Assembly (NCBI GenBank): GCA_016223105.1 | Contig: JACRPR010000122.1 | Coordinates: 1-43,045, forward strand | Direction: 5' to 3' | DNA from: Chloroflexota bacterium | GTDB lineage: Bacteria; Chloroflexota; Anaerolineae; UBA4142 | DNA length: 43,045 bases | In this document: piece by piece, positions 17,293 through 39,763 of the stretch | Numbering within the stretch: the stretch's first letter is position 1 | Layout of the letters: each line of letters starts with the position of its first letter | Made by a program: the position numbers and the translations under genes | The notes under the pieces: generated by a model | Database searches by the model: none | What the model was told of the DNA's origin: nothing | Seen by the model: only the letters and a program-made list of their open reading frames with translations

Positions 17293-17374
17293 AAAAACTT
17301 CCGAAATCTTGGAGATTTCGGAAGTTTGAAAAAAGTAGAGACGTTCGCGAAGCATGCAACGTCTCTACTTTTTT
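17293..17374. terminator. Two hairpins between convergent hpt and the response regulator
   Basis: AACTTCCGAAATC / GATTTCGGAAGTT, then AAAAAGTAGAGACGTT ... AACGTCTCTACTTTTT. The second has A- and T-runs on both sides and should stop transcription in both directions. Confidence 0.88.
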
Positions 17375-19739: not shown

Positions 19740-21863
19740 GTGAAAACCTTGGATATAGTTTTAGCCGGGCGCGCGACGCGGCTCATCATCCTCGCGGTGT
19801 TCATCGTGTTGTCATTGATTTTGACTTTGCGCGGGGCGCACGCCGCGGTGAATGGCATCGGGTTGGTTGCGGTCGGACCGGTCATGTCCGACAATGGATT
19901 CCCGGTGTGGTACAAAGATTCCGCCGGCACGCGGTTAGAGTTGTGCCTTGAGGCGACCAATCCACTCTGCGGCTTTGTCGCCGGCGACATTCCCAACCCA
20001 GCCGCGCCACTCGTCGTTCCCAACAACTTTCCCGATGAAGCATTCTGGATGCTCGGCTCGGCGGGCTTGACGACAAACGGCACGGGACGCGCCACACTCG
20101 TCCTGGGACTCGAAGCCGCCTTTAGCGTGGGACCCCCCGTAGATGGCGACCAGATTAGTTTCGGGCGTGTCCGCATTTGGGTTGACAACCTTGTGCCTGG
20201 GGCGACGTATATCGTCACCCACCCGTATGGTCGGGATGTCTTTCCCAATGTAGATGCTGGCACACGCGGCATCCGCTATGTCCAAGACATCGGCATTGGC
20301 GCACCCGGCGATTTTACCGGCGCGCTCAACAGCCGCATTGGACCGTTCCTCAAATGGACTGCCACAGCGCCGCTCGCGCCAGCCGGCTTTATCGGCGACC
20401 CGAATATTTTGCATGCGGTTACCGGCAGTCCGAATAGCACAAACTTTTTCCGCATCGAAGGTCCAGCCGGCAGTTTTACCGGCAGTCCCAACTTGTGCGC
20501 GAATCCCGCGCTCGGCGCGGATCCAGTCGCCACAACCGACTGCATCGAAACCACCCTGTTTTCACTGATGGGTAAATTCGCGACGAATGGCGGCGTGACC
20601 GCCGATCGCGCGACCTATTCCCGACCCGCCGGCAGTGGTGGCGGTACGATTGACGTTTACGCAACCTCCGAAGCCAGCCAGCCAATCGAGGTCGCTCGCG
20701 GCACCACATTCGGCACCACATTGTTGGATGGCGATTCGGGACGATACTATGGACGCATCGGATTTACCGGGGCAACGCCGGCAACGCTCAAAGTCCGCAA
20801 TTCTGGCGATGTTCCCATCACTGAAAAAACAATCACGGTGGTTGACCTGGTGACGATCACACGCGCCGAGTACAACTCCGACACCGACACGCTCACGGTC
20901 GCCGCCGATTCAAGCGATCAAGATCCGCGACCGGCATTGACGATCACTGGTTTCGGCGCGCTCTCGGCGACTGGCACTAGCACGTTCGCCAATGTTGCCG
21001 TGCCGCCGAACAACCTCACGGTTACTTCTGCCAAAGGCGGGACGGATACGCAACGCGTTACGATCATCGGATCAACGTTCGCGCCGCTGGCGGTCTTCGC
21101 CGCGGCGGGGACAGACCAGGTCGTGCAACAAGGACAAGTCGCCACGCTCGACGGTTCTGGTTCGACCGGCGATATTGACACTTATCAATGGGCGCAGGTT
21201 GGTGGTCCGGCGGTTACGCTGAGCAACGCGAATACCAAGACCGCGACCTTTACCGCGCCGACGCAGTCGGTTACGCTGACGTTTAGTCTGACTGTTTCGC
21301 GTTTGAATCCCCCGGGTCCCGGCAGTACGGACACGGATCAAGTTGCGCTCACGGTCGCGCTGTTGTCGCCGCCGATCGCAAACGCGGGACCGGATCGCAC
21401 GTTGATTCAAGGTACGACGGTAACTTTGGACGGAAGCGCATCGAGTAATGCCAGTGGGTATAGCTGGGCTCAAACGGCTGGACCCGCCGCGGCACTAAGC
21501 AATCCAACCGTCGCCAAACCAACTTTTGTCTTCCCAGTTCAGAACCAACTGGTCACATTCCAATTGACGGTTACAGGACCTGGCGGTGCGCCATCTTCAG
21601 ATTTGGTGACCATCAATCCGGTCTTGGATACGATCACTGCTCCTCGCACCGAGTACACGGTCAGTAAATTGGAGTGGCGTTCACAAGGTACGGCAACCGT
21701 TCTGGGACCGACTGCCGGTCCGGGAAACACGATTACCCTTACGCTGAACAAAGCCAGCGGGGCAATCGTCCTCGGCACGACAGAGGTTGACAACCTCGGG
21801 GCGTGGGCGTTCCGGCTCACGAACGCTCCAGCAGATAAACGAGGGCAATCACAAGTTTGGTAA
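19740..21863 (+). CDS. Secreted PKD-domain protein
   Basis: A 707-aa exported protein starting GTG 19740 after AAAGGAGGAATTA. The signal peptide is RLIILAVFIVLSLILTLRGAHAA. Residues ~37-370 are a beta-rich region I cannot name (GIGLVAVGPVMSDNGFPVWYKDSAGTRLELCL...). Two PKD-like repeats follow (AAGTDQVVQQGQVATLDGSGS..., ~455-540, and ANAGPDRTLIQGTTVTLDGSAS..., ~550-635). A C-terminal beta domain ends abruptly (AFRLTNAPADKRGQSQVW), so the tail may be cut. It is the first gene under P1 and divergent from the two-component genes, so probably part of the same regulon. Confidence 0.85.
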   Translation: MKTLDIVLAGRATRLIILAVFIVLSLILTLRGAHAAVNGIGLVAVGPVMSDNGFPVWYKDSAGTRLELCLEATNPLCGFVAGDIPNPAAPLVVPNNFPDEAFWMLGSAGLTTNGTGRATLVLGLEAAFSVGPPVDGDQISFGRVRIWVDNLVPGATYIVTHPYGRDVFPNVDAGTRGIRYVQDIGIGAPGDFTGALNSRIGPFLKWTATAPLAPAGFIGDPNILHAVTGSPNSTNFFRIEGPAGSFTGSPNLCANPALGADPVATTDCIETTLFSLMGKFATNGGVTADRATYSRPAGSGGGTIDVYATSEASQPIEVARGTTFGTTLLDGDSGRYYGRIGFTGATPATLKVRNSGDVPITEKTITVVDLVTITRAEYNSDTDTLTVAADSSDQDPRPALTITGFGALSATGTSTFANVAVPPNNLTVTSAKGGTDTQRVTIIGSTFAPLAVFAAAGTDQVVQQGQVATLDGSGSTGDIDTYQWAQVGGPAVTLSNANTKTATFTAPTQSVTLTFSLTVSRLNPPGPGSTDTDQVALTVALLSPPIANAGPDRTLIQGTTVTLDGSASSNASGYSWAQTAGPAAALSNPTVAKPTFVFPVQNQLVTFQLTVTGPGGAPSSDLVTINPVLDTITAPRTEYTVSKLEWRSQGTATVLGPTAGPGNTITLTLNKASGAIVLGTTEVDNLGAWAFRLTNAPADKRGQSQVW

Positions 21864-23257: not shown

Positions 23258-23959
23258 ATGAAAAACACAGTGGATTCTATGCGGCACTGGTTCACCAGGT
23301 TGCTTGAGCGCACTGAAGCAAAATTTTCCGTGCTCGTCGCGCTCACGCTCACGCTCGCGCTGACATACGGCGGGGGTCTCTGGTTACATCTGTTGCACCA
23401 AGCGAATGGCGCGACCGAGTTGAATCAGCCGCCGCCAGTCATTCACTGGTTACGCGATTCGACGCTAATGTTGCCACTTGTTCTCGTCAGTGTCTTTACT
23501 GCGCTTGTCTTCGCGCAGTGGTTACTAGTGCGCTTTGGTCCGGCTACTCCGCTGATCCTTGAAAGCATAGTGGTTGTCGCAAGCGTCGCATTGATTACCA
23601 GCGTTGTGCTCGCCTGGGCAAGCCCCATCCACGACAGTCTTTTCCGAGCGCAACACCCAGCGCGCCACCATCAAGGCGATGCAAAAGTGTTGCTCGCGCT
23701 CCAGCAAGACGATGAAGCGGAAACATCGTTCGCGCTTCAACACGACGACGCGGAAACATCGTTCGCGCTTCAACACGACGATGAAGAAATGCTGACTGTT
23801 CCGCATATACTTTACGATGGCTCGCTGGCATTGGTTGGTAACCTGGTGCTTTCAAGTATTCTCTTTGCGCTGTTCCGTGGGCGATTGTGGGGAAGGCGCG
23901 CCGCGCGGCGAATCCGAGTGGTCAAACCGGCGCTCCCTGCCCGAATGTCGCGCGGATGA
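23258..23959 (+). CDS. His-containing four-helix membrane protein (same domain as giant MCO N-terminus)
   Basis: 233 aa, start ATG 23258 (SD GAAAGGAGC). About four membrane helices. Shared with the N-terminus of the giant MCO at 27175 are YGGGLWLHxxHxxxGAxE, PPxxxHWLRDxTLxLPL, ASPxHxxLFxAxH, and a last helix LALVGNLVLSSILFAL. Conserved His residues near the membrane edge could bind metal or haem. No known family recognised. Between helices 3 and 4 a 33-bp tandem repeat (SFALQHDD, QHDDAETSFALQHDD) adds an acidic, His-bearing loop. It may anchor or serve the Tat-exported MCO that follows. Confidence 0.8.
   Translation: MKNTVDSMRHWFTRLLERTEAKFSVLVALTLTLALTYGGGLWLHLLHQANGATELNQPPPVIHWLRDSTLMLPLVLVSVFTALVFAQWLLVRFGPATPLILESIVVVASVALITSVVLAWASPIHDSLFRAQHPARHHQGDAKVLLALQQDDEAETSFALQHDDAETSFALQHDDEEMLTVPHILYDGSLALVGNLVLSSILFALFRGRLWGRRAARRIRVVKPALPARMSRG
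23717..23782 (+). repeat. 33-bp in-frame tandem repeat
   Basis: Two units starting GCGGAAACATCGTTCGCGC differ by one base, with a half-unit before them (CAGCAAGACGATGAA). Each encodes AETSFALQHDD. Confidence 0.9.
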
Positions 23960-24220: not shown

Positions 24221-26407
24221 ATGTCTAACAAAACGACTGACCCAACCAAGATTACTCGGCGTGATTTTTTCAAACTGAGCGCCGCCGCAACAGCGGCGTT
24301 CGCTATGGCTGGCGTGGGATCGCTGATCGCGCCGGATCTTGCTCGCAAGGGCTTGCTCTCTCCCCTTGGAGTGTTCGATGCCGCCTCGGTCGCGCTGGCG
24401 GATGCCATCTACATTGAAGCCGCCCCGACTAGCCCGCTGATCCTCACCCCGTTCCGCGATGTTCTTCCTATTCCCAAAGCGCTGGCTCCGATTCCCAAGT
24501 CGGTCTACAGCATCTGGAAGAACCCGCCGGGTTCTGGTGCCGGTCAGCAGACTTCGGTCAGCAAAACTGAAAAACATCAAATCTGGACCAGCAAGATCGG
24601 CTACCCAGACCCGCTTGTCTACCAGATCAAACTTCAGGTGAACACCCATCGCTTCACCACGTCCCAGGTGTTACCAATCGGCGCGAACGGCGCGCCGACG
24701 ATCTCGTTCGACGCAACCGGCAAAACCTACCCGGCAGGTACGGTCAGAACTCTGCCGGCAAGCACCATCTACGGATTTAACGGCACATTTCCGGGACCTA
24801 TGATCAATGCCGAGTATGGCAAGCCCGCCCTTGTGCGCTTTGAGAATCACCTGGACGAGAACCCTGACAATCTTGATCGCCAAGACTTTGGGGCTCCGGA
24901 CTATTCGTTTATGACCCACTTGCACAACGGTCATACGGCGCCGGAGAGCGATGGCAACCCGAACTATTCGATGAACAAGTTGAAACTCCACGGCTATCCG
25001 ACCAAAGCGTGGGTTGATAACCTCTATCTCAATTGGCCCGCCGGCGGTGACAACAACGAAAAGCAGTCGTTCTTGTGGTTCCACGACCATCGGATGGACC
25101 ACACCGGGTCAAATGTTTACAAGGGAATGGTCGGTCTCTTCCCGATCTACGACCCTGCCCAAAGTAAGGATATGGGGGACGAGACCAAGGGGTGGCGATT
25201 GCCGGGTGTTCGGAAGAACAATGCGGATGGCTCCTTCGACGTTGACTATGATATTCCACTCGCTTTCTATGACTGCCGACTGGACGATGGAGTTACCACC
25301 CACCAAGATATGCACGATGGCATGGGCGAGTTCCCAGCCGCCGGGAATCCCAGAACCCACCCGGAGTGGTGGGGCAAGACCTTCTACAAGCACTTTGTTA
25401 GTCATGGCTTTGTCGGAGACATCTTCACGGTGAACGGGACAGCCAACCCGGTTCTCGAAGTCAAGCGGCGCAAGTACCGCTTCCGCTTCCTGGACGCCTC
25501 GATCGCCCGGATCTATGAGTTCAAACTGATGAGCTCGACCAAGGGTCCGAAGGCGGCGAAGGATCTCGGATACGGCGGAGACGAGCTACAAGGACAGTAC
25601 CGAATTCTCGACGGACAGCAGTGCATGAAGTTTATCCAAATCGCGACCGATGGCGGCTTGATCCCCGCCCCGATCACCCGCGATTCCTTCGAACTGTGGC
25701 CCGCAAATCGCCGGGAGATGATCGTTGACTTTACAAAGTATATGGACGGGACGCCGACCTCAAAAGGCGACGTGATCTACCTGACGAACGTGATGAAGAT
25801 GAAGGACGGGCGCATGTGGGACAACTCAACCCGCTCCGGGCTTGACCCGAACTATAAGGTGCCGGTCCTAAAGATCGTGATCGGCGACGACGCGCCGGAT
25901 AACAGTCTGATCCCCACGGCTCTGCGCCCAGTGCCAAACTATGCTTACGGGGATTGGAAGAAGGACTTGGACAACCGAATGATCTTCGAGGTTCAGCGTG
26001 GCGGTTCTGGAGGGGAGATCGAATGGTTAGTCAACGGGCAACCCTTCGACCCCGCTAAACCGGCGCGGTCGCTCAAGAACCCCGCGGGTAATCAGCCGCT
26101 CGCGATCCAAAAGCTGGGAAGCTACGGAGTGTGGGAAATCCGGAACGGCGGCGGCGGCTGGGTTCACCCATTCCACTTTCATATGGAAGAGCATCGCGTC
26201 ATTATGCGGAACGGGAAGCTGATTCCCCCGGCTGACCCAGGTCACCCGGATGGCATCTCGAAAGAGGATGTGTGCAATCTGGACCCGTCCGAGTCGGTGA
26301 TCGTCTGCCGGCATTTTCGAGACTTTGTTGGCAAGTACGTCGGGCATTGCCACAACCTGGCGCACGAAGACCACGCCATGATGTTCGGGTGGGAAGTCGT
26401 TCCGTAG
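24221..26407 (+). CDS. Tat-exported multicopper oxidase (CotA/bilirubin-oxidase-like)
   Basis: 728 aa, SD AAAAAAGGAAAAATC, start ATG 24221. The twin-arginine signal TRRDFFKLSAAATAAFAMAG sends the folded, copper-loaded enzyme out. All four copper motifs are present: THLHNGH (CBS1), WFHDHRMDH (CBS2), HPFHFHMEEH (CBS3) and GHCHNLAHEDHAMM (CBS4, with the type-1 Cys and a likely axial Met). Such enzymes oxidise phenols, bilirubin or metal ions (Cu, Mn) and reduce O2 to water. Codon style is less CG-rich than in the flanking genes, so it may be a later arrival. It ends before a hairpin (26515-26554). Confidence 0.93.
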   Translation: MSNKTTDPTKITRRDFFKLSAAATAAFAMAGVGSLIAPDLARKGLLSPLGVFDAASVALADAIYIEAAPTSPLILTPFRDVLPIPKALAPIPKSVYSIWKNPPGSGAGQQTSVSKTEKHQIWTSKIGYPDPLVYQIKLQVNTHRFTTSQVLPIGANGAPTISFDATGKTYPAGTVRTLPASTIYGFNGTFPGPMINAEYGKPALVRFENHLDENPDNLDRQDFGAPDYSFMTHLHNGHTAPESDGNPNYSMNKLKLHGYPTKAWVDNLYLNWPAGGDNNEKQSFLWFHDHRMDHTGSNVYKGMVGLFPIYDPAQSKDMGDETKGWRLPGVRKNNADGSFDVDYDIPLAFYDCRLDDGVTTHQDMHDGMGEFPAAGNPRTHPEWWGKTFYKHFVSHGFVGDIFTVNGTANPVLEVKRRKYRFRFLDASIARIYEFKLMSSTKGPKAAKDLGYGGDELQGQYRILDGQQCMKFIQIATDGGLIPAPITRDSFELWPANRREMIVDFTKYMDGTPTSKGDVIYLTNVMKMKDGRMWDNSTRSGLDPNYKVPVLKIVIGDDAPDNSLIPTALRPVPNYAYGDWKKDLDNRMIFEVQRGGSGGEIEWLVNGQPFDPAKPARSLKNPAGNQPLAIQKLGSYGVWEIRNGGGGWVHPFHFHMEEHRVIMRNGKLIPPADPGHPDGISKEDVCNLDPSESVIVCRHFRDFVGKYVGHCHNLAHEDHAMMFGWEVVP

Positions 26408-27174: not shown

Positions 27175-29058
27175 ATGCCTAGTTCAATTTTTAACAGCAT
27201 CATCCATCGGCATAAACCAGGGATCCAACTTTCAGTTGACCTCTGGCTTGCTCTCGCGCTCGCGTACGGCGGCGGCTTGTGGTTGCACTGGATTCACGAA
27301 CTCGAAGGCGCGATGGAACACGATGCGCCGCCCGTGTTACTCCACTGGTTGCGCGATGCAACCTTGCTTTTGCCATTGATGCTCGGCGCAGTTATTGCCG
27401 CGCGATTGATCGCGCGGCGATTGTATTTGACCGGCGCGCGGCGATCTATCGCGATCGCGTTCGTCGCGAGCGCGCTAATGGGCGGCGCGAGTCCTCTGCA
27501 TCAAATTCTTTTCGACGCGCATCATCACGCCGCGCTGGGCGCGTCCGTCCTGGTTCACAGCGCGCGCGACACCCTGCTCGCGTTGATCGCGAACCTGGTC
27601 ATCGTGAGCGCGGTCGCGCTGATCCGCCAACCCCGGCGTTGGGCGCGCCAACGCGTGATTTTGCGCGCGGTGTTGGCAATCACGCTGATCACAAATTTTC
27701 TCGCGCCCCTCGCGCCGACGGTTTCCGCCGCGCCCGCGGCGCAAACGGCTAACGTCTGCGCGACCGCGACGCGCACAATCACGTATGATGTCGCCGCGTT
27801 TCAAACGATCATCCCGCATAACGGCTGGGGCGATCACACGCCCGACGGATTGATGTTCGCGCTCTCGAACGCGGACGCGATTCCAAACAAAGACGCGCTG
27901 ATCGCGAACCCGAATCTCATCGAGCCACTCGTGATCCGCGCCGCCGTCGGCGATTGCATCCTGGTCAATTTTCGCAACGACATTACCGGTCGTCGCGTCG
28001 GAATGCACGTCAACGGCATCTCCAAAGATCCAAAAACCTCCGACGGCGCGCGCATCGGCAACAATCCTGACACTACCGTGCCGACCGGCGGAACGATCAC
28101 GCACACATTTTTCGCGCACCGCGAAGGACAGTTCGTGATCAACGATTACGGCAGTGGCTTGAACTATCCCAACGACACCACGAGTCGCGGTTTGTACGGC
28201 GCGCTGATCGTTCTGCCGCGCGGCGCGACCTGGCACGATCCGCGCACCGGGCGCGACTTGCTCGACGCGAGCAAGCGCGGCGTCGGCGCGATGCCGTTCG
28301 CGGACGCGCGCGTGCCGGGTGTCGGCAATGATTTTCGCGATTTCGTCGCGGTCTTTATGGACGAGCCGGAAGGCGTGTTGGATCGCGATGGCAAACCGCC
28401 GGTCTTTCCATTGACCGGCATCGAGGACGGCACATTCGGGATCAATTATCGCTCCGAGCCGTTACGCAATCGCGCGCGCGCGGTGTTGGAACATCGCGGC
28501 TTGGTGTACGATGCCGCGCAAAATAAAATCGTCGCGACCGCGCCAAAAGTGGTTACGCTTCCGAACGGCACGGTCATTCAACCGACCGATCATTTTTGCG
28601 ACGGCTATGTCCCGGAACTCGATCAAATCGTGAGCGATCCGGGCGCGCAATGCGTCGGCGAAGAATTTCATTTGCAATCGTGGCCCTTTGGCGATCCGGG
28701 AAAACTCACGCGCAAACTCGCGGACGGCACGATTGTCGCGGACACGGATAGCATCATTCCCAAAGCGTACGTCGGCGACCCGGTGCGTTTTCGCATCGTG
28801 CATCCCGGCGTTTACGAAACGCACACCTGGCATCAACACACGAATCGCTGGCGGCACGAGCCGAACGATCCCGATTCGACACGGCTCGATGTGCAATCTA
28901 CCGGACCCGGGCAAACGTTTGAATTGGATTTCGAAGGCGGCGCCGGGCAAATGATGGGCACGGTCGGCGACCAGGTTTTTCACTGCCATTTGTATCCGCA
29001 CTTTGCGGAAGGATTCTGTCGGTGTGCCCGAACGATTTTATTATCCCGCGTTCATTGA
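27175..29058 (+). CDS. Giant multicopper oxidase, part 1: membrane domain plus first cupredoxin unit
   Basis: ATG 27175 (SD CAGGAGATC) rather than GTG 27154. Residues ~10-180 form the four-helix membrane domain shared with 23258 (YGGGLWLHWIHELEGAMEHDAPP, HWLRDATLLLPL). A signal-like LAPLAPTVSAAPAA follows, then two cupredoxin folds (RTITYDVAAFQTIIPHNGWG ..., THTFFAHREGQFVINDYG). Copper motifs HTWHQHTNRW and VFHCHLYPHF are CBS3- and CBS4-like. From about 29015 the frame is lost (last residues CRCARTILLSRVH are spurious). The real protein continues in the next ORF, with some intervening sequence apparently missing. Confidence 0.85.
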   Translation: MPSSIFNSIIHRHKPGIQLSVDLWLALALAYGGGLWLHWIHELEGAMEHDAPPVLLHWLRDATLLLPLMLGAVIAARLIARRLYLTGARRSIAIAFVASALMGGASPLHQILFDAHHHAALGASVLVHSARDTLLALIANLVIVSAVALIRQPRRWARQRVILRAVLAITLITNFLAPLAPTVSAAPAAQTANVCATATRTITYDVAAFQTIIPHNGWGDHTPDGLMFALSNADAIPNKDALIANPNLIEPLVIRAAVGDCILVNFRNDITGRRVGMHVNGISKDPKTSDGARIGNNPDTTVPTGGTITHTFFAHREGQFVINDYGSGLNYPNDTTSRGLYGALIVLPRGATWHDPRTGRDLLDASKRGVGAMPFADARVPGVGNDFRDFVAVFMDEPEGVLDRDGKPPVFPLTGIEDGTFGINYRSEPLRNRARAVLEHRGLVYDAAQNKIVATAPKVVTLPNGTVIQPTDHFCDGYVPELDQIVSDPGAQCVGEEFHLQSWPFGDPGKLTRKLADGTIVADTDSIIPKAYVGDPVRFRIVHPGVYETHTWHQHTNRWRHEPNDPDSTRLDVQSTGPGQTFELDFEGGAGQMMGTVGDQVFHCHLYPHFAEGFCRCARTILLSRVH

Positions 29059-31732
29059 CGCGAAAATTGTGTACAACAAAGCCGGCTGGCACGATCCGTA
29101 CGGCAAACTCTACGCCCAAGCCGCGCCCGAACCTGGTTTGACCGCGCTCCAAAAAGCGGACCAAGTGCGCCAAGCGATCAACGCCGGCGCGATTCAACCG
29201 GAACCGTTCACGATTCGCGCGCGCTTGGGCGAGTGCGTCAACTTGCGGACGACGAACGCAACGCATCTCGACAACGATCCAAATGTGCCGCTCGATCTGC
29301 ACGCGCCGAACGGCGACATTTTCCACGAACCGACGCCAATGACCGAGATGAGCAGTCACGTTCACCTGGTGCGGTTCGACGAACTCGGCTCCGACGGCAC
29401 TTCGATTGGTTGGAATTATGTGCAAGCGCCGCTCGTCGGACAAACGTACGGCTATCGCTGGTTTGTGGATTTGCCTTTGCGAACCGTGTTCTTTCATGAT
29501 CATCAATTTCCGACGACGCATCAACAGCACGGTGTGTGGGCGGCGATGAACGTCGAACCCGCGGACGCGACCTGGCACGATCCAAAAACCGGGTTGGAAA
29601 CGAATGGCATCGGCACGGTGATGGACATTCGCTCGCCATCGGGTCAGGACTTTCGCGAATTCACCGTGCACTATTCCGATTTCGTGCCGTTGTTCGACGC
29701 CGCCGGCAAGCCGCTCAACCCACCGACGCGTCCCGATTTCTACGGGCAAGACCAGGGCGGCATGGCGATCAATTATCGCAACGAACCGTTCCCGACGCGA
29801 CTTAACTCGGCGAGCAGTGGCGCGCCCGGCGAGCCGGCGTACATTTTCAGTTCCGCCGTGCACGGCGATCCGGCGACGCCGATCTTTCGCGCGTACGCCG
29901 GCGACCCGGTTGTGTTCCGCTTTATGGATGGCGCGCACGAGGAAGAACACAACTTTAATCTCGCGGGGCATCGCTGGTTGCACGAACCGGACGACCCGGC
30001 ATCGAATCTGTACGACACGCAAGCCGCGAACATTGGCGAGTTTTTCAACTTTGAAGTTACTGCCGGGCGCGCGGTGCGACGCGGCAATGCCACCACTGCC
30101 ACGGCGCGCGAAAAAATGCGCGAGCACGCGCAGATGACCTTGGGCGCGACCATCGTTCTGCCTGCCGGCGCGAACGCGACCGGCGGCGATTATCTCTACA
30201 GTTCGCAACCGTTGAACGATTTGTGGAGTGGGATGTGGGGCATCTTTCGTGTGCTTGCCGGGCGCGTGTCCGATCTGCAACCGCTTCCCGATGTTACCGC
30301 GCCGCCGACTGTGCCAGCCGGTGGTGAATGGCTCGCGCTAAAACCAGGTCAATCCATCAGCGCGCCGCCGCCGGCTAAAATTTTGAATCCGTGTCCGCCG
30401 AGCGCGCAGATCAAAAAAATCGCCATCAGCATCGTGCAACAAAAAATCGTTTACAACGCCGCGGGCGATCACGATCCGAATGGCATCGCGTATGTGTTGA
30501 ATCAAGACCTCGATCTTGCCGGCAGACCGAAAGCCGGCGTCGCGCTCAAGCCGTTGTTCATTCGCGCGAACGAAGGCGAGTGCGTGCATCTGGCGTTGAC
30601 CAATCGTTTGCCCAGCGCGGGCATTCCAGTGCACGCCGGCGATCCGGTCAATCCAACCGAGAACACGAGTGTGACGAATCGTTTGGCAAACGGAAGTTTG
30701 CAGTTGGTCAACGCGACCTGGCGTCCCAGCAATCGCGCGTCGGTGCATATTGCCGGCTTGATCAAACACAAGGTCGTCAGCGCGGACGGCGCGGCGGTCG
30801 GTTACAATTACGATACGACGATCGCGCCCGGCAAAACGTTCACGTACTATTACTGGCTCGACAGCAAAGACATTGGCATTGCGAACATTCAAAATATGGC
30901 GAATATCCGTGGCACGCGCCATCACGGCGCGTGGGGCGGACTCGTCGTCGAACCGAAGGGCGCGGTGTATCTCGATCCCAAGACCGGCGCGTTTGTGCGG
31001 AGCGGTGAGAACGCGGTCATCAAATATCCGATCATAAATCCCAATGGCACGACGACGTACAACTTATTCCGCGAATTCATTGTCAACCTTCAAGACGGGT
31101 TGAATCTATTCGACAAAAATGGAATTCAAATCGCGGATGCCGCCGCGCACGCCGGCGAAGCCGCCGATTCCGAAGACCAGGGCGAAAAAGGCATCAACTA
31201 TCGGAGTGAGCCGTTCCGTAACCGGCTCGCGCGCGATCCGCAATCGGCGAACGTGTTCAGTTCGGTCGTGCATGGCGATCCGGCAACGCCGATCTTTCGT
31301 TCCTACGTCGGCGAGCCGGTGATGGTGCGCGTGTTGAACAGCCAGGATTTGCCGCGCGCGCACACCTTCGGCATCGCGGGGCACGAGTGGCGGCACGAAT
31401 GGAATGATCCGACCTCGAACATTATCAACGCGCAAGGCGGCTTGAACACGAGTCGCGCATTCAATCTAAATTTGATTGGCGGCGCGGGGGGACCGCAACA
31501 ACTCGCCGGCGATTATCTGTACAACGATCGCAATCTGTTCCACAATTTGAGCGGCGGATTGTGGGGACTGATTCGCGCGCACGACACCGCGCAGATCGAT
31601 CTCAAACCGCTGTTTGCGAGCGCGCGGATTCCCGTCGCGCCGATCACACAACCGGATCCGAGTTTGCCGCCGCCAGAGTTGGGCATTGACGTGGGCATGT
31701 TTGAATACTTTTCGCCGACCATTTTCAAGTGA
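29003..31732 (+). CDS. Giant multicopper oxidase, part 2: further cupredoxin units
   Basis: It continues part 1 in another frame. The first residues (MRKDSV) are not a real start; family sequence begins about VPERFYYPAFIDAKIVYN. It holds two more MCO-like units. The first has SSHVHLVRFDE (CBS1-like) and FFHDHQFPTTHQQHG (CBS2-like), then EEHNFNLAGHRWLHEPDDP. The second (from about 30400, KKIAISIVQQKIVYNAAGDHDPNG) keeps the fold but has lost most copper ligands. With part 1 this gives about six cupredoxin folds, as in ceruloplasmin or MnxG-type enzymes. The product is likely extracytoplasmic and tethered by the part-1 membrane domain. Confidence 0.85.
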   Translation: MRKDSVGVPERFYYPAFIDAKIVYNKAGWHDPYGKLYAQAAPEPGLTALQKADQVRQAINAGAIQPEPFTIRARLGECVNLRTTNATHLDNDPNVPLDLHAPNGDIFHEPTPMTEMSSHVHLVRFDELGSDGTSIGWNYVQAPLVGQTYGYRWFVDLPLRTVFFHDHQFPTTHQQHGVWAAMNVEPADATWHDPKTGLETNGIGTVMDIRSPSGQDFREFTVHYSDFVPLFDAAGKPLNPPTRPDFYGQDQGGMAINYRNEPFPTRLNSASSGAPGEPAYIFSSAVHGDPATPIFRAYAGDPVVFRFMDGAHEEEHNFNLAGHRWLHEPDDPASNLYDTQAANIGEFFNFEVTAGRAVRRGNATTATAREKMREHAQMTLGATIVLPAGANATGGDYLYSSQPLNDLWSGMWGIFRVLAGRVSDLQPLPDVTAPPTVPAGGEWLALKPGQSISAPPPAKILNPCPPSAQIKKIAISIVQQKIVYNAAGDHDPNGIAYVLNQDLDLAGRPKAGVALKPLFIRANEGECVHLALTNRLPSAGIPVHAGDPVNPTENTSVTNRLANGSLQLVNATWRPSNRASVHIAGLIKHKVVSADGAAVGYNYDTTIAPGKTFTYYYWLDSKDIGIANIQNMANIRGTRHHGAWGGLVVEPKGAVYLDPKTGAFVRSGENAVIKYPIINPNGTTTYNLFREFIVNLQDGLNLFDKNGIQIADAAAHAGEAADSEDQGEKGINYRSEPFRNRLARDPQSANVFSSVVHGDPATPIFRSYVGEPVMVRVLNSQDLPRAHTFGIAGHEWRHEWNDPTSNIINAQGGLNTSRAFNLNLIGGAGGPQQLAGDYLYNDRNLFHNLSGGLWGLIRAHDTAQIDLKPLFASARIPVAPITQPDPSLPPPELGIDVGMFEYFSPTIFK

Positions 31733-31748: not shown

Positions 31749-32330
31749 ATGAGACCCGAAATGAACGAGCCCATTCGTGTGTTGGCGCTCGACGACGCGC
31801 CGATTTACTGCGCGGGGATTCGCCACGCGCTCGAAGCCGCGCCGGGATTCGCGCTCGCGTTGGCGACGGGCGATCCCGCGCATGCGTTCGCGCAGGTCCG
31901 CGTGATCAAACCGCACGTCATCCTCCTGGGTTTGAATCGCGCCACCCACGAGCCGATTCGCCTCGCGCGCGCGCTGTCCGATTATGCGCCGGTGCTCGCC
32001 CTCGCGGAACGCGCGGAGGACGAAGCGGAATTGAACGTCGCCGGTTTTTCGCGCAAGACGATTGACGCGCCGGGTTTGCGCGACGCGCTCCAGCGCGTCG
32101 CGCGCGGCGAACGCGCCGGCGCGAATGAAACGCGCGCGCTCTCGCCACGCCAAGCGCAAGTTCTAAAATGCGCCGCGTCCGGCGAAAGCAACAAATTGAT
32201 CGCGCGCACGCTGAGCATTCGCGAAAAAACGGTCAAGAATCATATGACTTTGATTTTGCGAAAACTGGGTATGACCAACCGCACCCAAGCCGTGATGTGC
32301 GCTTTGCAACGCGGCTGGGTCGCGCTGTAA
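31749..32330 (+). CDS. LuxR-type regulator with degenerate receiver
   Basis: 193 aa from ATG 31749 (SD TTTGGAGAATC), 16 nt after the MCO. The N-terminal receiver keeps LALDDAP, but the phospho-acceptor position reads HVILLGLNRA, Gly61 in place of Asp, so it should not be phosphorylated. The C-terminal HTH is intact (LSPRQAQVLKCAASGESNKLIARTLSIREKTVKNHMTLILRKL) and close to that of the regulator at 17374. It may bind the same box without phosphorylation or modulate that regulator. It is an orphan, with no kinase nearby on this strand. Confidence 0.88.
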   Translation: MRPEMNEPIRVLALDDAPIYCAGIRHALEAAPGFALALATGDPAHAFAQVRVIKPHVILLGLNRATHEPIRLARALSDYAPVLALAERAEDEAELNVAGFSRKTIDAPGLRDALQRVARGERAGANETRALSPRQAQVLKCAASGESNKLIARTLSIREKTVKNHMTLILRKLGMTNRTQAVMCALQRGWVAL

Positions 32331-32345: not shown

Positions 32346-34259
32346 ATGAAAAATCAACATTCGAAAAATTCGCGCGCGCGCAATCGTGTGCCCACCCCGC
32401 TTTTCGCGCTGGGACTCTTTGGAATTATTTCGCTCGGGCTATTCGCGTCGGGCATCATTCCGCGCCCCGATGCCAGCCAAGCCAGTGACGCGCATCACGC
32501 GCCCACCGCCGCGCGGATCGTGTTCGGTCCGCGCGATGTTGCCGGGCGCGACGCGCACGCGCGGCTCGAGGTCGCGAGCGCGGATGAGCACGCGACTGCC
32601 GGCGCGATTCCGACCGGACAAAAAACGCTCGTAACCGTGCGCTTGAGCGATCCGCGCACTGGCGCAATGCTCGCCGGCTTGAATCCGACGATAGACCTGG
32701 CGTTGGTCGGCGCGGCATCCAATTCGAACGCGAGTGATCCGTTTGAATCGCGCGAGACGATGGTGTTTGCCGGGAGTTCGGTCGGCGTGATCGAAGAAGG
32801 CGGACACACCCACAATAAACCAGGTCGCGGTTTGGGTAAAGCGGTCGGCGCGAATTTTACCGCGATGATCAATCTGCCGAATCCCGCCGCGGACGCGGCG
32901 TTGGATCGCGAGCACCGTTACATTTTTATCACGCTTCCCCAAAGTGACCAGGTCGTGATCGTGGACGCGCTGACGCATCGCCTCGCGCACCAGGTGCGCG
33001 TCGGCGCGCGCCCGAACCATCTCGCGCTCGAACCGTCGGGCAAGCGGGTGTGGGTGGCGAATGATGGCGCAGGCACGCTCACCGCGATTGACACGGCGAC
33101 GCACGATACGCAAACCGTCGCGGTCGGCGCGGGGCATCACGACATTGTGTTCGCGGACGATCAACCGCTGATGTTCGTCACAAACAGTCAAGCCAACACG
33201 GTTTCGATCATTCACCTGGAGCGCGCGCAGAAAATTGCGGATGTGCCGGTGGGCAACGCGCCGCACGGCTTGGACTATGCCGCGCGCCGATTGTATGTGG
33301 CGAACGAAGGCGACGGCACGGTTACGGTTTTGAGCATTGAAGGCGAACGCGCCACGCCGCTCACGGTGATTCGCGCGGGCGCGGGCGCGCGCCAGGTCAA
33401 GCTGGATCCGACCGGCAAAATTGGCGCGGTCAGTAATTATCGCGCGAACACGCTCACGCTTTTCAACGCGCAGACGCACGCGCTCATCAAAACCATCGCG
33501 ACCGGCGGGGGACCGGACGGCATCGTATTTTTCGAGCGGTACGTGATCGTCCGCAACACCCTCACGCCGGATGCGACCTTCGCACATCTCGATAACCCGG
33601 ACATTGCGGACAATCTCGAACTGAGCAATGTGCCGTTGCTCGCGAGTCCCGCGCCCGATTTTCACGCGCGCTTGTTTGTCGCCGGCGAGATGGTGATCGC
33701 GCCGCACCCGGTAACGGGACAACTCCAGCGTTTGCATTTGATGCACGGTCGTCCGATGCCGATGGATCAGCTCAAAGCGACGAGCGGCGCAGAGTTTGTG
33801 TTATCGCTCGCGAACACGGTCAAGGAGATTCGTCCGGGTGTGTATCAACGCGTCGTGCAATTCGATCGCGCGGGCGCGTACGCGTTACGCGTCAACGTTG
33901 CCGGTCAAGCGCCGATCGAGTTCACGCTCGATGTCGCGAGCGCGCGCGCGGAGAAAGCGGCGCGCGCGCAACTGCTTACGCCGGCTGAGTCTTACCAGGT
34001 CGGCGCGCCAGCGGTGATCCGCTTTCGCGTGCACGCGCCCGACAACGCGCTCACCGACGGCACGATCACGGTATACAAGTTCACGCCGGGGCAAGGCATT
34101 TGGCAAAAAATTTTGCCGGCGGAATTTGCCGGCAATGCCGTGTATCAAATTACGCTCGAGTTTCCCGACGCGGGCGAGTATGCGGCGACATTCAGTTCCG
34201 TTAAATTGGGATTGTTGACGCAAGACAGTCCGCGTTTTACGGTGAATGTGGTCAAGTAA
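32346..34259 (+). CDS. Exported YVTN-type beta-propeller protein
   Basis: 637 aa. An N-terminal membrane anchor (PLFALGLFGIISLGLFASGII, ~18-38) precedes a seven-bladed YVTN/YncE-like propeller (~180-430: YIFITLPQSDQVVIVDALTHRLAH, KRVWVANDGAGTLTAIDTATHD, RRLYVANEGDGTVTVLS). Then comes a domain with LHLMHGRPMPMDQLKATSG and a beta-sandwich C-terminus (YQVGAPAVIRFRVHAPDNALTDG). The His/Met-rich stretch could bind copper or another metal. It lies 15 nt after the regulator and is probably the last gene of the P2/MCO unit. Weak SD (GCCAGGC). Confidence 0.85.
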   Translation: MKNQHSKNSRARNRVPTPLFALGLFGIISLGLFASGIIPRPDASQASDAHHAPTAARIVFGPRDVAGRDAHARLEVASADEHATAGAIPTGQKTLVTVRLSDPRTGAMLAGLNPTIDLALVGAASNSNASDPFESRETMVFAGSSVGVIEEGGHTHNKPGRGLGKAVGANFTAMINLPNPAADAALDREHRYIFITLPQSDQVVIVDALTHRLAHQVRVGARPNHLALEPSGKRVWVANDGAGTLTAIDTATHDTQTVAVGAGHHDIVFADDQPLMFVTNSQANTVSIIHLERAQKIADVPVGNAPHGLDYAARRLYVANEGDGTVTVLSIEGERATPLTVIRAGAGARQVKLDPTGKIGAVSNYRANTLTLFNAQTHALIKTIATGGGPDGIVFFERYVIVRNTLTPDATFAHLDNPDIADNLELSNVPLLASPAPDFHARLFVAGEMVIAPHPVTGQLQRLHLMHGRPMPMDQLKATSGAEFVLSLANTVKEIRPGVYQRVVQFDRAGAYALRVNVAGQAPIEFTLDVASARAEKAARAQLLTPAESYQVGAPAVIRFRVHAPDNALTDGTITVYKFTPGQGIWQKILPAEFAGNAVYQITLEFPDAGEYAATFSSVKLGLLTQDSPRFTVNVVK

Positions 34260-34337: not shown

Positions 34338-36671
34338 TTAATTCATCGCGCGATACGATAAATCCAACACCTCGACGACGTGCATTACGCGCGCGTTCAG
34401 TTTCGCGCGGCGCACGCCCGCCCACAATTGCATATGGCAACCGGTGTTACTCGCGACGATCACCGCCGCGCCGGTCGCGGCAATGTCCGTCATTTTCGCG
34501 TCGAGGATCGCGTCCGCGGTTTCGCTCTGCGCGATGTTGTACACGCCCGCCGAACCGCAACATTGATCCGGCGTTTTGAGTTCGACCAGGTTGAGCCCAG
34601 GAATTTGTTTGAGCAAATCGCGCGGCTGGCGAATCACTTTTTGCGCGTTCCGCAAATGGCACGAATCAGAATAGGTCACGCGCAGGTTCACCTCACCGCG
34701 CGGCGGCGCGTGGAGATGCTCCGCCAAAAATTCGGAAATGTCCTTGACCTTGTGTGCGAGTTGTTTGGCTTTCGTTTCGTACTCCGGCTCGTCGTGAAAG
34801 AGATGCACGTACTCGTGCTTGAGCGTCGCGCCGCATCCGCCGGCATTGTTGATCACATAATCGTATTTTTCGGAGAGGAGCGCGTCCAAATTTTTGCGCG
34901 CGAGTTCGCGCGCGTGCGCGAGATCGCCGACGTGCAACTGCGCCGCGCCGCAACAGGTTTGCTCCGCCGGGAAATGTACTGCGTACCCGTTGCGTTGAAG
35001 CACGCGCACCGTCGCCGCGTTGACCGGCGCGAGAAACGCTTCCTGGATGCAACCGTGAAAAAACGCGACCGTGCCGCGTCTCTCGCCCAGCGCGGCCGCG
35101 GGTTCCGCGCGATCCAAAAAATTCAATTCGAGCGGCGGCAAAATCGCTTCCATCGCGCGGAGTGGCTGGGGCAACCAATTGAGCGCGCGCACCGCTTTTT
35201 GCAAACCCAGGAATTGGTACAGCCACACCGCGCGCGCCATCAATTTCAGTCGCGCGACGTTCGGCATCATTTCGCGCAAGCCGAGCCAACGCACAAAGCG
35301 TTCCGCGATCCCAGGTCGGCGGCGCGCCTCGACCGCGATGCGCGCGGTTTGAATCAACTGACCGTACTGCACGCCGGACGGACACGCGCTTTCGCACGCG
35401 AGGCAGGACAAGCACAAGTTCATGTGCTGAGCGAACACCGTGCCGAAATCGTCCGGCGCGATTTTATTTTCCGCGACCGCGCGCATCAATACGATGCGTC
35501 CGCGCGGCGAATCCATCTCGGTGCCAAACACCGCATAGGTCGGGCATGCTTGCAAGCACAAGCCGCAGTGGATACATTGATTGACGCGCGCGCGAAATTG
35601 CGGCGTCGTAAATTCGGGAAAGGTGGACTCGTTCAATGCCAATCCTTTTTGCGCGTTCCTGGGAATACGATTTTTCCCACTGCTCCAAAAGAACACGCCG
35701 GGATTCGGCGCGAGTGCGCTCTCGGCTTTCACTTCTTCGGCGTCTTTTTTCGGAAACACAATCGAAGCGACAATCGCGAGCGTGAGCAGAACGAACACGA
35801 CGCCAAGCGCGATTTCGGTGGGGATTTTGAAAATCTCGTGGAGCAACATTTTGACGCCGATGAATCCCAGGATAATCGCGAGCGCGTACTTGAGATAGTG
35901 GAACAGTTGCATCACGCCCGCCAGCGCAAAGTACAACGCGCGCAATCCCAGGATCGCGAAAATGTTCGAGGTGTAGACGATGAACAGATCGTTCGAAATG
36001 CCCAGCACTGCCGGGATCGAATCGAGCGCGAACAACAAATCGGTGCTTTCGATCACGACGAGCGTCGCGAGCAAGGGGGTCGCGTGCATCACCCCGTTGA
36101 GGCGCACTAGAAATTTTTCCGCGTGCAACGTCGGCGTTACCGGCAAATAGCGCGACACAAATTTGAGCGCGGCATTGTTGCCCGGGTTCACATCGTCCTC
36201 GACGCCGTTGAACAGCCGGAACGCGGTAACAACCAGGATGATGCCAAAGACGTACAGCATCCAACTAAAGTTGTGAACCAATTCGACGCCGACGACGATC
36301 AAAATCGCGCGCATCACAATCGCGCCGAGAATGCCCCAGCGCAGAATGCGCGGTTGATACAGCGGCGCGATGCCGAAATAACTGAACACGACGAGAAACA
36401 CGAACAGATTATCCACGCTCAACGATTTCTCGATGAGGTACGCCGCCAAATACATCAGCGCTTTTTCACTGCCGAGTTCATAGTACACGAACACGTTGAA
36501 CAACAACGCCGCGCCGATCCAAATCGCGCTCCACGTCAACGCGGATTTGATCGTGATGATGTGAGCTTTGCGATTGACCACGAAGAGATCGATGTAGAGC
36601 ATAATGCCGACGACAATTGTAAAGCCGCCGAACATTAACATCTCACGCGAAACCAATTCCGAACTGGTCAT
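34338..36671 (-). CDS. TerC-family membrane protein fused to a GlcF-like Fe-S/CCG protein
   Basis: 777 aa from ATG 36671 (SD GGAGGAAATATCA). The 36800 start of the ORF track would translate a palindrome. Residues ~1-325 are a complete TerC protein (EKSLSVDNLFVFLVVFSYF, ESTDLLFALDSIPAVLGIS, last helix ending IVASIVFPKKD); several TerC members export Mn2+. Residues ~370-777 are a glycolate-oxidase GlcF-like subunit with two 4Fe-4S motifs (CIHCGLCLQACPTY, CLSCLACESACPSG) and two CCG blocks (EQTCCGAAQLH, DQCCGSAGVYN). No glcD/glcE gene is in the window. The fusion is seamless in frame but unusual. It could be real or could come from loss of a stop/start region. Confidence 0.86.
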   Translation of the reverse strand: MTSSELVSREMLMFGGFTIVVGIMLYIDLFVVNRKAHIITIKSALTWSAIWIGAALLFNVFVYYELGSEKALMYLAAYLIEKSLSVDNLFVFLVVFSYFGIAPLYQPRILRWGILGAIVMRAILIVVGVELVHNFSWMLYVFGIILVVTAFRLFNGVEDDVNPGNNAALKFVSRYLPVTPTLHAEKFLVRLNGVMHATPLLATLVVIESTDLLFALDSIPAVLGISNDLFIVYTSNIFAILGLRALYFALAGVMQLFHYLKYALAIILGFIGVKMLLHEIFKIPTEIALGVVFVLLTLAIVASIVFPKKDAEEVKAESALAPNPGVFFWSSGKNRIPRNAQKGLALNESTFPEFTTPQFRARVNQCIHCGLCLQACPTYAVFGTEMDSPRGRIVLMRAVAENKIAPDDFGTVFAQHMNLCLSCLACESACPSGVQYGQLIQTARIAVEARRRPGIAERFVRWLGLREMMPNVARLKLMARAVWLYQFLGLQKAVRALNWLPQPLRAMEAILPPLELNFLDRAEPAAALGERRGTVAFFHGCIQEAFLAPVNAATVRVLQRNGYAVHFPAEQTCCGAAQLHVGDLAHARELARKNLDALLSEKYDYVINNAGGCGATLKHEYVHLFHDEPEYETKAKQLAHKVKDISEFLAEHLHAPPRGEVNLRVTYSDSCHLRNAQKVIRQPRDLLKQIPGLNLVELKTPDQCCGSAGVYNIAQSETADAILDAKMTDIAATGAAVIVASNTGCHMQLWAGVRRAKLNARVMHVVEVLDLSYRAMN

Positions 36672-36691
36672 TGATATTTCCTCCGAACAGA

Positions 36692-36800
36692 TTGGATGTT
36701 GGACGTTGGATGTTTGACGTTGGACGTTAGACGTTGGACGTTGGACGTTGGATCTTAGAAGTTGAATTCCAACTTCCAACTTCCAACTTCCAACTTCCAA
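36692..36800. repeat. Tandem TTGGACG / CCAACTT palindrome
   Basis: Repeated TTGGACGTTGGA-type units face repeated TTCCAACTTCCAAC units around GAAGTTGAATTC. It lies between lutC and the terC-glcF start on minus. Confidence 0.9.
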
Positions 36801-36803
36801 TTT

Positions 36804-37454
36804 CTAACTTCCACCATCCATCACCCACACGCGTAATGCTTTCGGACCGTGCACGCCAATCGTTACCGTCAATTCAATGTCCGCGGTGCGACTCGGTCCG
36901 GTCACAAAGACCCAGTATCCTTCGCCCTTTACTTCCGCGAACGCGGGCGCGAGATCGGCGCGCAAAATTTCCGGCGTAATGATCGCGAGATGCACGCGCG
37001 GCAAGAGCGACACCGCGCGCGGTTTTTCCGGCGACGAACGCAAGAGCAGAGTCCCGGTTTCCGGGAACGCCGCGTCCGCGCCGGTGATGCCGAGATCACA
37101 TTCCGCGAGCGCGCGCTTGTCCGCGTGCGGCGAAATGATTTCGATGCCGAGATCGCGCAACGCGTCCGCGATGTCCCACGCTTTCAATTCCTGGGTTTCC
37201 CACAGCGTCGCTTTTTTCACCGCATCATCGCGCGCGATTTGCGCGAGCGCGGCGCGCATCTCCGCGCGCGAAATTCGTCGCGTCGCGCCGCCGAGTTTTG
37301 TAATCTCGCCGAGCAACATTTCGATTTCCGCGTTCGCGTCGCCGGGCACGCGCGGCGCGATGCGCGCCGATCCTGGGATCGGCAACACCGGCGCATCGGT
37401 TGTGCGTTTGAGCGCGAGTCGGACATCGGCAAGAATTTGTTCGCGTGCGTTCAT
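36804..37454 (-). CDS. lutC: LutC/LldG-type lactate utilisation protein
   Basis: 216 aa, cytoplasmic, LUD domain. Typical blocks: MNAREQILADVRLAL at the start, DLGITGADAAFPETGTLLLRSSPEKPRAVSLLPRVHLAII (the core ETGT motif) and VTGPSRTADIELTVTIGVHGPKALRVWV at the end. LutABC together oxidise L-lactate. I choose ATG 37454 (AGGA 8 nt upstream) over 37460; the ORF-track start at 37496 lies in a palindrome. Same operon as lutB and lutA, in the order A-B-C on minus. Confidence 0.93.
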   Translation of the reverse strand: MNAREQILADVRLALKRTTDAPVLPIPGSARIAPRVPGDANAEIEMLLGEITKLGGATRRISRAEMRAALAQIARDDAVKKATLWETQELKAWDIADALRDLGIEIISPHADKRALAECDLGITGADAAFPETGTLLLRSSPEKPRAVSLLPRVHLAIITPEILRADLAPAFAEVKGEGYWVFVTGPSRTADIELTVTIGVHGPKALRVWVMDGGS

Positions 37455-37465
37455 TTTCATATCCT

Positions 37466-37518
37466 GTAGCGCGGGCGGCTCGCCCGCTTTTCCCACTGCA
37501 GGCGAGCCGCCCGCCCCA
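37466..37518. repeat. GTAGCGCGGGCGGCTCGCC-type palindrome between lutB and lutC
   Basis: Same family as 4123-4175, here with inner TTTTCCCACTGCA. It sits between the lutB stop and the lutC SD. Confidence 0.85.
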
Positions 37519-37520
37519 CA

Positions 37521-39032
37521 TTATTTTTTTCTGCGCGCCAACCACCACGCGCCGAGCGCGGCGATGCCGGCAAAGAGCAACCCAATTCCCAGTTTGCGTT
37601 TTTGAACGCGCGCGCGACCGGCGGGCGTACGTTTGCGAAACCACGCGCGAAAATTCGCGTTGAACGCGGGCAACGGTCGCGTCATCGTCCAACGATTCGC
37701 GGGCGGCGGCAAATGAGTGAGCCAGCCCGCGCGCTGAAACGGCGCTTGAAAAATTTTTACGATTTGCGATCCGAGTGCGTACAAAAATGACTGACTGAGC
37801 GCGAACGATCCGGCGCGCGCGCCCGCGCGCATTGGCGCGGAAGTGATCGCGTCCTGAACGTGATCGCCCTCGACAACGCGATGACGCAAGCGCAGTAAAA
37901 TTTTCGGAATCGGAATTTTCACCGGGCAATAATCCGCGCACGCGCCGCACAGCGACGACGCGAACGGCAAATCCCCGGCAATTTTCACGCCGAGCAATTG
38001 CGGCGCGAGAATCGCGCCGATCGGTCCCGAATAGACCGCGCCGTACGCGTGCCCGCCGACGTGATTATACACCGGACACACATTCAGACAAACGCCGCAC
38101 CGAATACACAATAACGTTTCGCGCGCGACTGGATCGCGCAAAACGCGTGTGCGTCCGTTGTCGAGTAAAACCAGGTGAAACTCTTGCGGTCCGCCTTCTT
38201 CGGTCGAGCGGCGCGGTCCGGTGATGAACGAGGTGTACGTCGAAATTTTTTGACCGGTCGCACTGCGCGGCAACAGTTTCAGCAAAACATTCACGCTCTC
38301 AAAATCGGGAACGACTTTGTCAATGCCGACGACCGCGATGTGAAGCGGCGGCAGGGTTGTGCACATGCGTCCGTTGCCTTCGTTCGTTACGATCACGAGC
38401 GTGCCGGTTTCCGCGACCAAAAAATTCGCGCCGGAAATTCCGAGATCGGCGGACATGAATTCTTCGCGCAATTTCGTGCGCGCAATCGCGCACAGTTCGA
38501 GCGGATCGGGCGGCGCGTTCACGCCGAGTTTTTGCGTGAACAGATCCGCGATGCCTTCTTTGGTGAGATGCACCGCCGGCACGATGATGTGCGACGGTCC
38601 TTCGCCGGCGAGTTGAACGATGTACTCGCCGAGATCAGTTTCGAGCGTTTGAATCCCGGCGTCGATCAACGCGTGATTCAAACCGATCTCTTCGGTCGCC
38701 ATACTTTTTACTTTGACCGCGCGCTTGACGTTATGCTCGCGCGCGATCGCGAGGACGATTTGCCGGGCTTGTTCCGCATCGCGCGCCCAATGCACGATGC
38801 CGCCCGCGCTCGCGACATTTTCTTCGAGCCGCGTCAAATAATAATCCAAGTGATTGATCGTATGCAAGCGGACATCGTGCCCGGCTTGGCGCAACTGTTG
38901 CCAGCGTTCATCGCCGAAAATGTTTACGACGTTCGCGCGCGTGCCGAGAAAACGCGTCGTCGCTTTGCGAACGGACGGCGGCATATTGGGTGGCACGCGT
39001 TGAACGTTCGCGCGAAAATCAATCCGCATCAT
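37521..39032 (-). CDS. lutB: LutB/LldF-type iron-sulfur protein
   Basis: 503 aa from the ATG at 39032 (overlapping the lutA stop as ATGATGA); the start at 39350 in the ORF track is a shadow of lutA. The N-terminal LUD part has VKVKSMATEEIGLNHALIDAG, GANFLVAETGTLVIVTNEGNG and SFITGPRRSTEEGGPQEFHLVLLDNGR. The ferredoxin part has CIRCGVCLNVCPVYN and CGACADYCPVKIPIPK. It carries electrons in lactate oxidation. Odd: the C-terminus ends in a membrane helix (GIGLLFAGIAALGAWWLARRKK) after a basic stretch, which would tether it to the membrane; ordinary LutB is soluble. Confidence 0.94.
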   Translation of the reverse strand: MMRIDFRANVQRVPPNMPPSVRKATTRFLGTRANVVNIFGDERWQQLRQAGHDVRLHTINHLDYYLTRLEENVASAGGIVHWARDAEQARQIVLAIAREHNVKRAVKVKSMATEEIGLNHALIDAGIQTLETDLGEYIVQLAGEGPSHIIVPAVHLTKEGIADLFTQKLGVNAPPDPLELCAIARTKLREEFMSADLGISGANFLVAETGTLVIVTNEGNGRMCTTLPPLHIAVVGIDKVVPDFESVNVLLKLLPRSATGQKISTYTSFITGPRRSTEEGGPQEFHLVLLDNGRTRVLRDPVARETLLCIRCGVCLNVCPVYNHVGGHAYGAVYSGPIGAILAPQLLGVKIAGDLPFASSLCGACADYCPVKIPIPKILLRLRHRVVEGDHVQDAITSAPMRAGARAGSFALSQSFLYALGSQIVKIFQAPFQRAGWLTHLPPPANRWTMTRPLPAFNANFRAWFRKRTPAGRARVQKRKLGIGLLFAGIAALGAWWLARRKK

Positions 39033-39763
39033 TGCGCGCCTCCGTTCGCGGCGAGAACCTGGATGGTGTGCAGGGCGCGAATCGGCGAACCGATTTTGTG
39101 GAGACCGCCCGCGATGTTCATCAAACAACCGGGATCGCCCATCACGACATAGTCCGCGCCGCTCGCTTGAATGTTCGCGATTTTCGCGTGCATCATACTC
39201 GCGGAAACTTCCGGGTAAATCACGCTGAACACGCCGCCGAATCCGCAACAGGTTTCTTCTTCGTTGAGCGGCACGAGTTCCAAACCTTTGACCGCGCGCA
39301 ATAATTCTTTCGATTCTTCGCGCAAACCCAGCCCGCGCAACGCGTGGCACGACGCGTGATACGTCACCTTGTGTGGAAACGTCGCGCCGACATCGCGGAC
39401 GTTGAGCACGCGCACGAGAAATTCGCTAAACTCGTACGTGCGCGCGGCGATCTCCTGAGCGATGGAATGTTCGCGCGGGTCTTGAAAAAGTTCCGGCAAA
39501 TGATGGCGCACGAAATCCACGCACGAGCCGGACGGCGCGACGATGTAGCCGTCGGTCGGCGCGAACACGCGCAAAAAATTTCGCGCCGGCGCGATGGCTT
39601 GACTCTGAAAACCGCTGTTGTAAAACGGTTGACCGCAACAGGTTTGACCTTCGGGCATCGCGACATCCACGCCGATGCGTTCGAGCACGCGCACCAGATC
39701 TTGAAGCGTGGACGAGAAAAAATTTTCGCCGAGACAGGTGAGAAAAAGTTGGACGCGCATCAT
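39029..39763 (-). CDS. lutA: LutA/LldE-type CCG-domain protein
   Basis: 244 aa, cytoplasmic. Two CCG (cysteine-rich) blocks: QTCCGQPFYNSGF with the early FLTCLGENF, and YHASCHALRGLG...EETCCGFGGVFSVIYPEVSASM. In LldE these bind an Fe-S or haterodisulfide-type cluster. The SD GGAGAAA precedes ATGATG (39763/39760). First gene of the lut operon on minus, overlapping lutB. Confidence 0.94.
   Translation of the reverse strand: MMRVQLFLTCLGENFFSSTLQDLVRVLERIGVDVAMPEGQTCCGQPFYNSGFQSQAIAPARNFLRVFAPTDGYIVAPSGSCVDFVRHHLPELFQDPREHSIAQEIAARTYEFSEFLVRVLNVRDVGATFPHKVTYHASCHALRGLGLREESKELLRAVKGLELVPLNEEETCCGFGGVFSVIYPEVSASMMHAKIANIQASGADYVVMGDPGCLMNIAGGLHKIGSPIRALHTIQVLAANGGAQ

Follow-up and report, generated by a model that had tools for sequence, protein, structure and literature searches.

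MnxG-type multicopper oxidases produce manganese oxide minerals, and MnxG works together with MnxE3F3; to our knowledge, little is established about how such enzymes are attached to the cell surface and supplied with copper. The Bacillus sp. PL-12 enzyme MnxG (PDB 9bxa) consists of six cupredoxin domains and lacks a membrane domain. According to PMC3600357, bacterial six-domain multicopper oxidases have one type 1 (T1) copper site, in domain 2, and a trinuclear copper cluster located between this domain and domain 3. Ceruloplasmin and hephaestin also have a six-domain ring fold, like the oxidase described here, but differ from it in placing the trinuclear site between domains 1 and 6 and in having three T1 sites. 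The mnxG operon of Pseudomonas putida GB-1, which is under two-component control, includes genes for an SCO protein and for a beta-propeller protein of the lactonase family (PMC8218464).

Here we describe a related oxidase encoded in a 43,045-nucleotide stretch of Chloroflexota DNA, which was analyzed as a whole (the window). It is probably a membrane-anchored, MnxG-type six-domain multicopper oxidase situated on the external side of the cytoplasmic membrane. Like MnxG of Bacillus sp. PL-12, it has six cupredoxin domains, a T1 site in domain 2 and an identical order of trinuclear ligands across domains 2 and 3; unlike MnxG, it carries a membrane domain, and the window copy has lost a linker and its reading frame. 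Such a membrane domain is not described for the P. putida GB-1 operon in PMC8218464, and fusion to one is unmentioned in the available parts of PMC3600357, where the site layout is that of the window oxidase. While the enzyme family and the order of its copper motifs are already known, the membrane-domain fusion looks new as an architecture, and we found no paper on it with the search terms tried.

Oxidase identity and copper sites

The oxidase is encoded on the plus strand by two ORFs in different frames, which overlap at 29003–29058. ORF1 (27175–29058; 627 aa) starts with an ATG at 27175, has AGGAG 5' of this start codon, and comprises the membrane domain and cupredoxin domains 1 and 2. ORF2 (29003–31732; 909 aa when its length is taken from an in-frame TTG, which is unlikely to be the true start codon) comprises domains 3–6. 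Both halves align with MnxG (PDB 9bxa chain A), ORF1 over its residues 205–615 (E = 2.7e-89) and ORF2 with E = 1.5e-178, far above chance. The NCBIfam MnxG model NF041487 also matches both, although the scores of 106 bits (ORF1) and 202 bits (ORF2) lie far under its equivalog cut-off of 3100 bits, and we therefore do not assign the protein to MnxG proper. A Foldseek search with a low-confidence AlphaFold model of ORF2 (pLDDT 51.7, too weak for ligand geometry) returned 9bxa_A as the best match (2.1e-60), with ceruloplasmins next. These results bear out the first-pass annotation, made from the sequence alone, which had proposed about six cupredoxin folds in an enzyme of the MnxG or ceruloplasmin type; it was also right that the third domain pair is degenerate.

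Domain 1 (27751–28485, +; aligned with 9bxa_A residues 6–231) has lost its copper ligands, and domain 2 (28645–29019, +; residues 240–346) carries the T1 site and is missing its last strand, the boundaries of both being approximate. Domain 2 contains a CBS3-like motif, HTWHQH (28822–28839, +), and a CBS4-like motif, HCHLYPH (28981–29001, +), and domain 3 contains a CBS1-like SSHVHLV (29351–29371, +) and a CBS2-like FFHDHQFPTTHQQHG (29489–29533, +). Following standard multicopper oxidase motif logic, which we take to apply here, HTWHQH supplies one T1 His and two trinuclear His, HCHLYPH supplies two trinuclear His with the T1 Cys and the second T1 His, and each domain 3 motif supplies two trinuclear His. 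The T1 set (His, Cys, His) falls in domain 2 and the eight trinuclear His are common to domains 2 and 3, so that the complete ligand set is present in the window across both ORFs. A ceruloplasmin-type trinuclear site is absent, as domains 1 and 6 are without ligands.

The last His of HCHLYPH (residue 609) aligns with an Ala in 9bxa, the entry for the Mnx H340A mutant, which is consistent with a T1 ligand. At the usual axial T1 position, the residue after HFAEG, a Phe occurs in the window, its two nearest orthologues (L031 and L005) and the 2558-aa protein of L033, while the other sequences compared have Met; the window's Phe sits at the edge of the lesion discussed below. The predicted axial Phe, where MnxG has Met, suggests an altered redox potential. 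In the mechanism we propose as part of the membrane-anchored MnxG-type reading, a metal would be oxidized at the T1 copper of domain 2, electrons would reach the trinuclear cluster between domains 2 and 3 through a His-Cys-His link, and O2 would be reduced at this cluster to water. The membrane domain would anchor the oxidase and may aid its maturation or copper uptake.

The first-pass annotation had placed the trinuclear site correctly, between the first and second domain pairs (domains 2/3 in PMC3600357), and had located the four motifs, but took their order, CBS3–CBS4–CBS1–CBS2, to be a permutation. The same order, with HxxHxH/HCHxxxH preceding the HDH motif, occurs in the window and all 17 full-length relatives (18 sequences; in some divergent ones the scanning pattern did not pick up CBS3 or CBS1), as well as in every bacterial six-domain oxidase examined in PMC3600357. 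We therefore reject a novel permutation of the copper motifs, which brings no novelty because the order is the rule throughout the bacterial family.

The nearest orthologues are L031 (genome G177, same phylum) and L005 (Daviesbacteria), with 46–65% identity over domains 3–6; L031 is 61% identical to ORF1 and 65% identical to ORF2. Both genes are intact and begin with a plain N-terminal signal or anchor in place of the four-helix domain found in the window. L005 comes from a CPR genome of ~0.8 Mb that carries an intact 1516-aa oxidase of the same subclade, which suggests horizontal transfer.

An N-terminal membrane domain shared among oxidases

The membrane domain of ORF1 (27175–27744, +) contains His-rich outer loops and the motif W-x4-H ... 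HWLRD. By hydropathy, residues 1–190 form four transmembrane helices, arranged as two hairpins, and a fifth anchor or signal helix that ends in the AxA-like TVSAAPA; five helices also appear in a low-confidence AlphaFold model of the domain (pLDDT 59.7). The four helices first annotated are present, then, but are not the whole of the domain. Loops 78–92 and 147–160 contain 4 and 5 Lys/Arg, which fits an N-in orientation, and loops 38–58 and 108–128 contain zero Lys/Arg and 4 and 5 His. This positive-inside charge pattern would place the oxidase outside the membrane. No family matched an eight-sequence alignment of the domain among Pfam, NCBIfam and PDB profiles, and Foldseek returned nothing at E ≤ 0.001 for the model with pLDDT 59.7.

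Although the fused architecture looks new, as first proposed, the membrane domain is not confined to the window gene. Within the window's phylum, at least five genomes encode it as a fusion with other MnxG-type oxidases (L032, the 1900-aa protein of L033, L035 and L037, with contig-edge copies in L036 and L038), and weaker matches were found in the 2558-aa protein of L033, L082 and L085. Together with stand-alone forms, 14 of the 18 copies scanned contain the W-x4-H...WxRD-type motif. Beyond the phylum, 200 genomes around L006 yielded no match, and the genomes around L010 and L007, samples that largely overlap, yielded a single weak match of 36 residues. The N-terminal start of the L083 protein looks similar, yet gave no match to the membrane-domain profile. 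This L083 protein (G644, contig C4) is a MnxG-type oxidase whose open frame extends over 4529 aa, with 3362 aa falling within the stretch examined, and a PKD protein is encoded upstream. At L081, 8584–9897 (−) encodes a membrane domain with the fifth helix and no oxidase behind it, resembling a decayed or truncated fusion.

Proteins carrying the fusion did not group as one clade in a tree built from the oxidase portion, which required three changes (AU p = 6.8e-34 for a single clade), indicating that the membrane domain was gained or lost repeatedly; the nearest oxidases, L031 and L005, are without it. A single ancestral fusion with neither loss nor reshuffling is accordingly rejected (AU p < 1e-30).

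The window also encodes a stand-alone paralogue of the domain (23258–23959, +; 233 aa, about 40–44% identical), partnered with a TAT-exported, CueO/PhsA-like three-domain multicopper oxidase (24221–26407, +). The same pairing of stand-alone membrane domain and three-domain oxidase occurs at five loci in all (the window, L059, L060, L062 and L063); the last three of these loci also have nearby a gene assigned as SCO-like from reading the sequence. The occurrence of the domain in both forms, joined to six-domain enzymes and encoded separately next to three-domain ones, points to a partner dedicated to oxidases. The fusion merits following in intact relatives. In addition, L064 (4980–6626, −) carries the membrane domain fused to a small multicopper oxidase of 549 aa, and the second outer loop of the window's stand-alone protein contains a near-perfect acidic/His repeat, LQQDDEAETSFALQHDDAETSFALQHDDEE, that is possibly metal-binding.

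A more specific role for the domain can be envisaged, as a hitherto undescribed module, active in redox or copper chemistry, that partners multicopper oxidases and couples extracellular metal oxidation to the respiratory membrane, with the His-rich outer loops and the W-x4-H/WLRD motif transferring copper or exchanging electrons with the quinone pool. We consider this joint proposal very unlikely. A redox role for the membrane His is weakened by the finding that only one, H41 of the window, is invariant in the eight-sequence alignment.

A lesion at the domain 2–domain 3 junction

The initial reading of the gene treated it as about 1,500 residues continued across a frame change. While the two overlapping long ORFs are as described, this is not a simple frameshift: at the junction (29003–29024, +), ~120 residues are lost relative to L031 and L005, in addition to a frame change at ~29010–29020. 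Alignment with these orthologues identifies the missing segment as the final strand of domain 2 together with the linker between domains 2 and 3, the window passing from CHLYPHFAEG-F straight to VGVPERFYYP. The frame change and the loss of ~120 residues together leave the oxidase gene broken as assembled, and this copy is probably non-functional in that form. The one continuous chain that the window copy lacks is present in all relatives, with both halves forming one ORF in 17/17 full-length sequences. The concern that the halves might be separate full-length enzymes in relatives is thereby answered, and an interpretation of the two ORFs as two separate enzymes is rejected.

A related idea is that ORF1 and ORF2 are separately translated subunits of a split oxidase, with the trinuclear site built across the subunit interface. 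The ORFs do overlap, an AAGGA-like stretch lies 8 bases 5' of a GTG in the ORF2 frame, and both halves are otherwise open, with no further stop codons in either. However, besides the single ORF that spans the junction in the relatives, ORF1 is missing the final strand of domain 2, the conserved linker is wholly absent, and ORF2 has no export signal, whereas ORF1 places its oxidase half outside; we therefore regard a split enzyme as highly improbable.

Two further explanations carry most of the weight. An assembly or consensus error in the MAG contig, with an intact gene of ~1650 residues in the organism itself, has close to an even chance of being correct: the assembly is in 250 contigs, the frame-linked GC pattern shifts at the junction (28950–29040), and the openness of both halves fits here as well. 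A recent genuine deletion would look identical, and a true pseudogene, in which such a deletion inactivated the oxidase and left the adjacent three-domain oxidase and propeller intact, has a probability likewise only just below one half. When the L031 linker was used as a query against all 250 contigs, nothing matched except the end of it that the window keeps and a distant internal repeat, so that the linker is absent from the whole assembly. Decay also occurs in the window's lineage, as the same-order genome with L081 keeps the membrane portion with no oxidase following. From the contig alone, true mutation and assembly error are indistinguishable.

Substrate and genomic context

Mn(II) is the most likely metal substrate of the MnxG-type oxidase, at a probability appreciably short of one half, and would otherwise give way to Fe(II), Cu(I) or phenolics. 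Whether the enzyme is a ferroxidase, cuprous oxidase or phenol oxidase rather than a manganese oxidase is, in our estimate, evenly poised. The fold is common to six-domain ferroxidases (ceruloplasmin and algal Fox1), the T1 site has an axial Phe in place of Met, and the adjoining three-domain oxidase is CueO/PhsA-like; on the other hand, manganese oxidases are its nearest relatives among solved and curated proteins, and the gene order is like that of the mnxG operon.

Both the window and the P. putida GB-1 operon encode a large multicopper oxidase and a lactonase-type propeller, and two-component regulators belong to both systems; SCO and SurA genes are additionally present in the P. putida operon (PMC8218464). 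In the window, a LuxR-type (GerE) regulator gene (31749–32330, +) begins 16 bases 3' of the oxidase and is followed by a gene for a YVTN/lactonase-type beta-propeller protein (32346–34259, +). This propeller is a conserved downstream neighbor of MnxG-type oxidases, with homologues downstream of the genes at L031, L007, L008, L010, L084 and L087. Further upstream, a PKD-domain surface protein (19740–21863, +) has homologues near MnxG-type oxidases in L060, L083 and L087, and a LuxR-type response regulator with a histidine kinase (17374–18844, −) has homologues beside the oxidase in L084. Beyond the propeller, an 820-aa ORF (34338–36800, −) joins a TerC-type membrane protein (residues 119–321) to an iron-sulfur/CCG protein; given the LUD-domain genes that come after it at 36804–39350, this ORF may represent a LutA-like protein fused to TerC.
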